Of a stretch of 64,000 nucleotides of DNA, positions 36,902-37,872 are shown piece by piece. Made by a program: the position numbers and the translations under genes. The stretch's first letter is position 1. Each line of letters begins with the position of its first letter. A model generated the notes under the pieces. It was not told the origin of the DNA. It made no database searches and saw only the letters and a program-made list of their open reading frames with translations. Origin of the DNA: Desulfosporosinus acididurans (GTDB taxonomy: Bacteria > Bacillota > Desulfitobacteriia > Desulfitobacteriales > Desulfitobacteriaceae). The stretch covers positions 310,001 through 374,000 of the forward strand of contig NZ_LDZY01000001.1 of NCBI RefSeq assembly GCF_001029285.1, in the 5' to 3' direction.

Positions 36902-36921
36902 TGAGAGTCCACCTTTCATTT

Positions 36922-37035
36922 GCTTACGAGGTTAGTTGACGGATTCGGGCTAAAGGTGTAAGCCCTACACGAGAAATCGTGATTCACCCCAAGAAAATCC
37001 CCCGCTCCTAACATAAGTTCGGATTCAGCATTTTA
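36922..37035 (-). promoter_or_regulatory. c-di-AMP riboswitch (ydaO/yuaA)
   Basis: Minus-strand RNA carries the hallmark conserved blocks of the ydaO-yuaA class in order: GGAGCGGGGGA, GGGGTGAATC, an AGGGCTTACACC variable arm, then AGCCCGAATCCGTCA and CTAACCTCGTAAGC closing the structure. This class binds cyclic di-AMP and usually turns off cell wall hydrolases and ion transporters. It ends 21 nt before the NlpC start, so control may be on translation or on an overlapping terminator. An AT-rich direct repeat (GGCGAATAG.CTAATATA twice) lies just upstream and may hold the promoter. Confidence 0.9.
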
Positions 37036-37212
37036 TATTAGTCTATTCGCCTATATTAGGCTATTCGCCAGTATGTCTAAAAATCCCTGCAATAATTCAT
37101 GGAATTATTATCCACTATCAGACTCCATGCCGCTAGGCAGCACCACTGATGGATAAAAATTGTGTCCATACTGTTTCTATGACTGGCGAAGGTAGGTCGA
37201 GATAGTAGGACA

Positions 37213-37837
37213 AATAAAAACCGCCTCTCAATTTGAGAGACGGACTTTATTTGGACAATAGGAGGCTAAAGAGTCAATATTGAGGCTTAGGTCAAGTAGG
37301 TTTTCCCACTAAGTTCCTTCGGTTTCCCTAAAGGCGATTTCTCCTTTTCCCCAGCCTGGGATGTCGCCATCACCAGAACTTGATCACCACTTAGTCCTCA
37401 CTTCAATCCTCTTTAGTTAACGTTCTAGAAGTTTCCTTAACACTCCTAGACAATCTAGCCTCTTTTGCAGAAAAGCATTTCCGGCAGTTTGAAAAGCATC
37501 GGCCAACACCCTCCAAACCTCTTAAAGCCTTCCCAACTTTTCCACCTCAAGGCAGGCTACACTGCACTAAGTTCCTTCCTAATGCAGGTTCTACCCTAAG
37601 CCATAGCTATAAAAGCCACGCACTTAGGCCTCCACGGAAAAGGGTAGCGCCCGCATGCCATTGCGGATCCCCCTCATTCCTTAACTCCCAGCAACAGCCC
37701 TCGACTGGGCGTCGAAAGCCACCACCAGGAACTTCATCGGTATGCCCTCGGCGGATTATTAGGCCCGCCTTCGATTGCCAATCGTGCACTAGAATAACGC
37801 TCCATAGCCCAAAGCAAAATTAATTGTTGTGATTACA
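37213..37837 (-). ncRNA. Large structured noncoding RNA (about 625 nt), OLE-like candidate
   Basis: A gene-sized stretch with no credible protein frame but many helices on the minus strand: CGATTG/CAATCG, GGCGG/CCGCC, CCTAAG/CTTAGG, CTGCA/TGCAG, GGCGA/TCGCC enclosing CCCAG/CTGGG, and a long-range GAGGCTA/TAGCCTC pairing about 180 nt apart. AAGGAACTTAGTG occurs twice (complements at 37307-37319 and 37565-37577). It has its own promoter and ends in a strong hairpin (37221-37243) followed by TTTTTATTT. Size, GC-rich ornate folding and host type suit the OLE class (about 600 nt, anaerobic and extremophilic Firmicutes); I cannot align it to confirm. ROOL or an unnamed class are alternatives. Confidence 0.78.
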
Positions 37838-37843
37838 TTGCCT

Positions 37844-37872
37844 ATTGTACCTGATTATCATAACTTTGTAAA
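37844..37872 (-). promoter_or_regulatory. Promoter of the large ncRNA
   Basis: TTTACA (37867-37872), exactly 17 bp, TACAAT (37844-37849) on the minus strand; five of six consensus bases in each box. Predicted RNA start near 37837. The 122 bp from here to 37994 hold no gene. Confidence 0.8.

Follow-up and report, generated by a model that had tools for sequence, protein, structure and literature searches.

An OLE RNA gene unlinked from oapA in Desulfosporosinus acididurans, and the joint retention or loss of both genes among its relatives

We found that the acid-loving sulfate reducer Desulfosporosinus acididurans carries an ole gene far from the gene of the partner protein OapA, and that related species lost both genes together from their two separate places. 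OLE (Ornate Large Extremophilic RNA, Rfam RF01071) is a class of large structured bacterial RNAs. We are close to certain that the D. acididurans gene has its own promoter and specifies a non-coding RNA of ~620 nt with the OLE fold, which would be part of a membrane particle bound by OapA and OapC and form a unit with the unlinked oapA. The window referred to below is the whole 64,000-nucleotide stretch that was analyzed. Its relevant features are the following.

37246..37821, minus strand: OLE RNA (RF01071), full length; cmscan match and covariation in 30 sequences
37867..37872, minus strand: -35 hexamer TTTACA; read from the sequence, kept in the genus
37844..37849, minus strand: -10 hexamer TACAAT, spacer 17 nt; read from the sequence, kept in the genus
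37221..37243, minus strand: intrinsic terminator stem-loop of 10 pairs, then TTTTTATTTG; read from the sequence and from congeners
37732..37741, minus strand: ACCGATGAAG, putative 5' strand of the OapC kink-turn region; from the alignment and the k-turn mapping in PMC9723947, with numbering by presumed correspondence
37501..37504, minus strand: GGCC palindrome of loop L9.3; from the alignment, with the dimer-contact role taken from PMC12286853
37995..39362, minus strand: DUF711 (PF05167) protein, upstream neighbor; Pfam 653.5 bits, syntenic in OLE-positive and OLE-negative congeners
36905..37040, minus strand: c-di-AMP riboswitch (RF00379) before the NlpC/P60 gene, downstream neighbor; 92.7 bits
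36185..36919, minus strand: NlpC/P60 cell-wall hydrolase gene (PF00877); Pfam 115.7 bits
34109..35950, plus strand: uvrC, open reading frame; in two families, most genomes have OLE close to this gene

The RNA Is a Full-Length Member of the OLE Class

The OLE model matched the window at 37246-37821 on the minus strand with 402.6 bits (gathering threshold 50, E 8.2e-115), and the match covers model positions 1-616 of 616. All 4227 Rfam families were scanned against the window; no second large-RNA family rose above threshold, and the remaining matches were the c-di-AMP riboswitch and a tRNA. The initial annotation had placed a large structured RNA in this interval without naming a strand and had proposed the OLE class, with RF01071 as the model to be searched. 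Both proposals were borne out by the end-to-end match together with the covariation described below, and its alternative of a different large RNA class had to be dropped. It had also seen no plausible protein frame, in agreement with a sole internal ORF of at least 60 aa that is itself 60 aa long and begins with GTG. The c-di-AMP control that it had assigned to the hydrolase corresponds to a real RF00379 riboswitch, and its guess of a Peptococcaceae host came close, the actual genus being Desulfosporosinus.

Experimental criteria apart, membership in RF01071 is established. The class is already known, and the D. acididurans locus (genome assembly of 4,637,866 bases in 47 contigs) adds no new one. 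Our literature search found no paper linking OLE RNA and Desulfosporosinus; in all likelihood the species is already within the GTDB-wide OLE survey (PMC11332333). Searches of plasmid and phage collections found no OLE relatives at the default E-value.

Compensatory Changes Support the OLE Fold

The region 37210-37837 (minus strand) folds to -230.5 kcal/mol, against -198.8 +/- 6.0 in dinucleotide shuffles (z = -5.3, 20 shuffles). We transferred the Rfam structure onto the window sequence in an alignment of 30 OLE sequences drawn from the same genus, family and order, and counted pairs. Standard pairs filled 89.1% of 4194 cells, compared to 82.4% in shuffles, and sliding the partners by 1-3 columns as a control left 37-48% of cells paired. 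Changes on both sides were observed at 63 of the 141 pairs, with 312 double-change cells vs. 98 in shuffles, and none of 500 shuffles reached either value, so that the covariation check suggested for relatives came out positive. Double changes are abundant in helices 13, 14, 16 and 17, and helix 7 (GCCUU with GAGGC) is invariant in the alignment. The Rfam structure fits this clade more poorly in helix 6 (66.7% paired) and helix 18 (74.2%).

Two elements singled out in the initial annotation did not withstand the comparison. In the long-range pairing GAGGCTA/TAGCCTC, one side is invariant and the other drifts, so that between 3 and 7 of the 7 pairs form, depending on the relative; the pairing also clashes with the Rfam structure, since GAGGC is already engaged in the invariant helix with GCCUU. 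The duplicated 13-mer AAGGAACTTAGTG is exact in the window sequence alone, and its second copy differs in every relative.

The likely counterpart of C85 of Halalkalibacterium halodurans is invariant across the OLE alignment, and ACCGATGAAG has a C where H. halodurans most likely has U84, both by presumed position correspondence. The H. halodurans OLE mutant U84C retains OapC binding (PMC9723947). The GGCC of L9.3 forms the kissing contact of the dimer in the cryo-EM structure of C. acetobutylicum OLE (PMC12286853), an RNA of 577 nt, close to the 576 nt over the model here; the palindrome is present in D. acididurans as well. GGCA takes the place of GGCC in several OLE RNAs of a sister family (f3): in L005, L008-L010, L013 and L016-L018, L9.3 reads UUGGCAAA and the palindrome is absent. 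Judging from these sequences, dimerization may differ in that family.

Promoter and Terminator Delimit the ole Gene

The promoter TTTACA-N17-TACAAT at 37872..37844 (minus strand) matches the consensus at 10 of 12 positions. At nine of the 11 same-genus OLE loci, TTTAC[A/T]-17-TACAAT precedes the model start by 20-22 nt, and a terminator-like hairpin is present at all 11. The promoter and the strong terminator (stem at 37243..37221, minus strand) that had been read from this one sequence are thereby found conserved in congeners. The expected transcript is ~620 nt long.

oapA Lies on Another Contig

We searched for OapA with the protein encoded next to OLE in a sister-family genome (G039). The genome search, which the initial annotation had recommended, yielded a single gene in D. 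acididurans (C5:83379-83933, E 2.8e-54, 53% identity to the query). The Pfam family PF01595 (CNNM) was rejected as a probe because its matches are MpfA proteins and its score for OapA is marginal (22.6 bits in G039). The DxxxD motif, which distinguishes OapA from CNNM proteins according to PMC11332333, is present in 30 of 30 OapA sequences. AlphaFold models of OapA are of low confidence (pLDDT 54-55).

With ole on contig C1 and oapA on contig C5, the two genes are not adjacent. On C5, oapA is found in the order xseA, xseB, ispA, DUF212, oapA, dxs, tlyA, NAD kinase, argR, recN (DUF212, divergent PAP2, was named by Pfam, the others were read from translations). In three sister-family genomes (G037, G039, G041), ole directly follows DUF212, and oapA comes next in the two with a continuing contig. 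In the family of the window and in a third family, oapA is still beside DUF212, and ole is near uvrC in most genomes. These arrangements agree with the "relocated OLE" considered in the initial annotation. Because ole is described as frequently adjoining oapA (PMC11332333), we infer that ole moved away while oapA stayed in the isoprenoid cluster.

Of the other OLE-associated proteins, an L7Ae-like gene of the OapC (YbxF) type lies between rpoC and rpsL; such a gene is not diagnostic for OLE, as OLE-negative relatives carry one too. OapB was not found in the D. acididurans genome, where map and infA have no gene between them. For OapB (YbzG, KOW), PF00467, whose sensitivity for OapB is not established, matched only two proteins, apparently ribosomal protein L24 and NusG. 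OapB has been reported from only about 60% of OLE species (PMC11332333), with which this negative result is consistent.

ole and oapA Are Retained or Lost Together

Among 61 related genomes, including 30 of Desulfosporosinus, both ole and oapA are present in 30 and neither in 29. One genome has ole alone, and its contig ends inside OLE; one has oapA alone. In the latter (G056, OapA at C83:38721-39275), OLE was not detectable in an assembly that is 95% complete; this apparent exception to the strict pairing is possibly due to an assembly gap. Another genome (G036) has two full-length OLE matches, one near uvrC (L003, contig C349) and a divergent one at C486:7283-7870, and one OapA. With a completeness of 78% and a contamination of 5% in this assembly, the second OLE may be foreign.

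Within Desulfosporosinus, 11 of the 30 genomes have both genes and 19 have neither, with single-contig genomes among the negatives. Named relatives bearing OLE include Desulfosporosinus sp. FKB (G008), whose UvrC is 95% identical to that of D. acididurans, the strains BG, PR and SbF1, D. metallidurans OL (G020), and Acididesulfobacillus acetoxydans (G032). In the OLE-negative congeners examined (the negatives include G003, G007 and G016), the order uvrC, NlpC/P60, c-di-AMP riboswitch, DUF711, ACT is kept around a short gap at the ole site, except that one genome (G004, locus L104) also lacks the NlpC/P60 gene and its riboswitch there. In most congeners the riboswitch persists next to the ole site, whether or not they have OLE. 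At the other locus, all 16 OLE-negative congeners examined keep ispA, DUF212 and dxs and are missing oapA.

A search of the empty ole sites with the Rfam model at E up to 5 found no OLE remnant. A genus-specific nhmmer profile revealed one, in G015: at the ole site of this genome (L134), 73 nt from the 3' end of OLE survive together with the terminator (E 1.7e-9; best E in shuffled gaps 3.5). Ahead of dxs, the oapA site of the same genome (L171) still holds the final 33 codons of the gene. In G001 and G013, a short 3' remnant that resembles oapA and includes a stop codon was read by eye. Such fossils of ole and oapA mark the absences as losses, and not as primary absence, at least in the lineages that bear them.

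Mapped onto a UvrC tree, the presence or absence of OLE requires five changes, of which at least three fall on branches with good support, with the caveat that uvrC itself lies near ole. oapA tracks ole in every independent pair on this tree, although three supported pairs cannot reach significance. Horizontal regain is also possible. Since ole and oapA are unlinked, their joint retention or loss is independent evidence for one unit, which hitch-hiking with a neighbor cannot explain. The observed co-occurrence indicates that the two genes still act together.

Discussion

We conclude that the RNA of D. acididurans is a full-length and very probably functional OLE RNA. Three other explanations were weighed against this. 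A decaying copy, which would have kept its family match and lost its function after separation from oapA, appears very improbable to us. The location of the two genes on separate contigs and the loss of both in 19 of 30 sampled congeners would suit such decay, but the match is full length, promoter and terminator are conserved, oapA is intact, and compensatory changes are seen inside the genus and beyond. Furthermore, the nearest relatives (G008, G009 and G026) all retain ole, and the only decayed copy observed belongs to another genome, G015. We give slightly less credit still to the reading that ole is not an independent RNA gene but belongs to the DUF711 operon, as an untranslated leader or a read-through product. 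ole and DUF711 share a strand, with 173 nt between the DUF711 stop codon and the start of ole; yet the conserved promoter separates the two, the terminator directly follows ole, and in two genomes (G033, G035) ole is not beside DUF711 at all. That a different ornate large RNA (ROOL, GOLLD, HEARO or a new class) merely resembles OLE, as the unusual neighbors DUF711 and NlpC/P60 in place of the expected isoprenoid genes and oapA might hint, is a negligible prospect and already refuted by the covariance-model result, in which OLE is the sole large-RNA class of 4227 families above threshold, with the whole model covered. The strict coupling of OLE to oapA across the phylogeny also speaks against it.

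The OLE RNA of D. acididurans would be transcribed from a sigma-70-type promoter of its own as a non-coding RNA of ~620 nt ending at the intrinsic terminator, and covariance-model match and covariation show that it adopts the conserved OLE structure. By homology with the H. halodurans and C. acetobutylicum systems, the RNA would dimerize; the membrane protein OapA and, through the kink-turn, the L7Ae-like OapC would likewise bind it. The resulting membrane-bound RNA-protein particle may serve stress adaptation, for example Mg2+ homeostasis. With the H. halodurans system, D. acididurans shares the sequence and structure family, the DxxxD motif of OapA, an OapC-type protein, and an own promoter and terminator. 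It differs in that ole is apart from oapA, OapB was not found, and the host is an acidophilic strict anaerobe.

MpfA/CNNM magnesium exporters (PF01595), a protein family and not an RNA, have been proposed as a functional substitute for the OLE complex, with a published anticorrelation (PMC11332333). In agreement with it, more PF01595 copies are found in OLE-negative congeners (0-4) than in OLE-positive ones (0-1; rank test, p about 4e-4); D. acididurans has one. Over independent pairs, an MpfA expansion after OLE loss is not significant, and we regard it as a lead. The same applies to a link with acidophily: OLE is retained in D. acididurans, whose type strain M1 is a moderate acidophile with an optimum of pH 5.5 (PMC4541271), in D. 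metallidurans, with an optimum of pH 5.5 (PMC11771766), and in Acididesulfobacillus. We tentatively suggest, while holding it to be rather doubtful, that the OLE particle is an accessory module in Desulfosporosinus, with the unlinked ole and oapA deleted together several times, mainly in MpfA-richer lineages, and kept in acidophilic or metal-exposed ones.

The relatives of D. acididurans differ cleanly in the OLE-OapA pair, their empty sites can be read, and one genome retains fossils, so that stress tolerance could be compared between cultured sister species with and without the OLE complex. We consider the coordinated loss of unlinked RNA and protein genes the most useful addition of this work. 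If the tentative link to MpfA and acid or metal exposure is true, Desulfosporosinus would be a natural experiment linking OLE function with acid or metal stress and with MpfA as its replacement.
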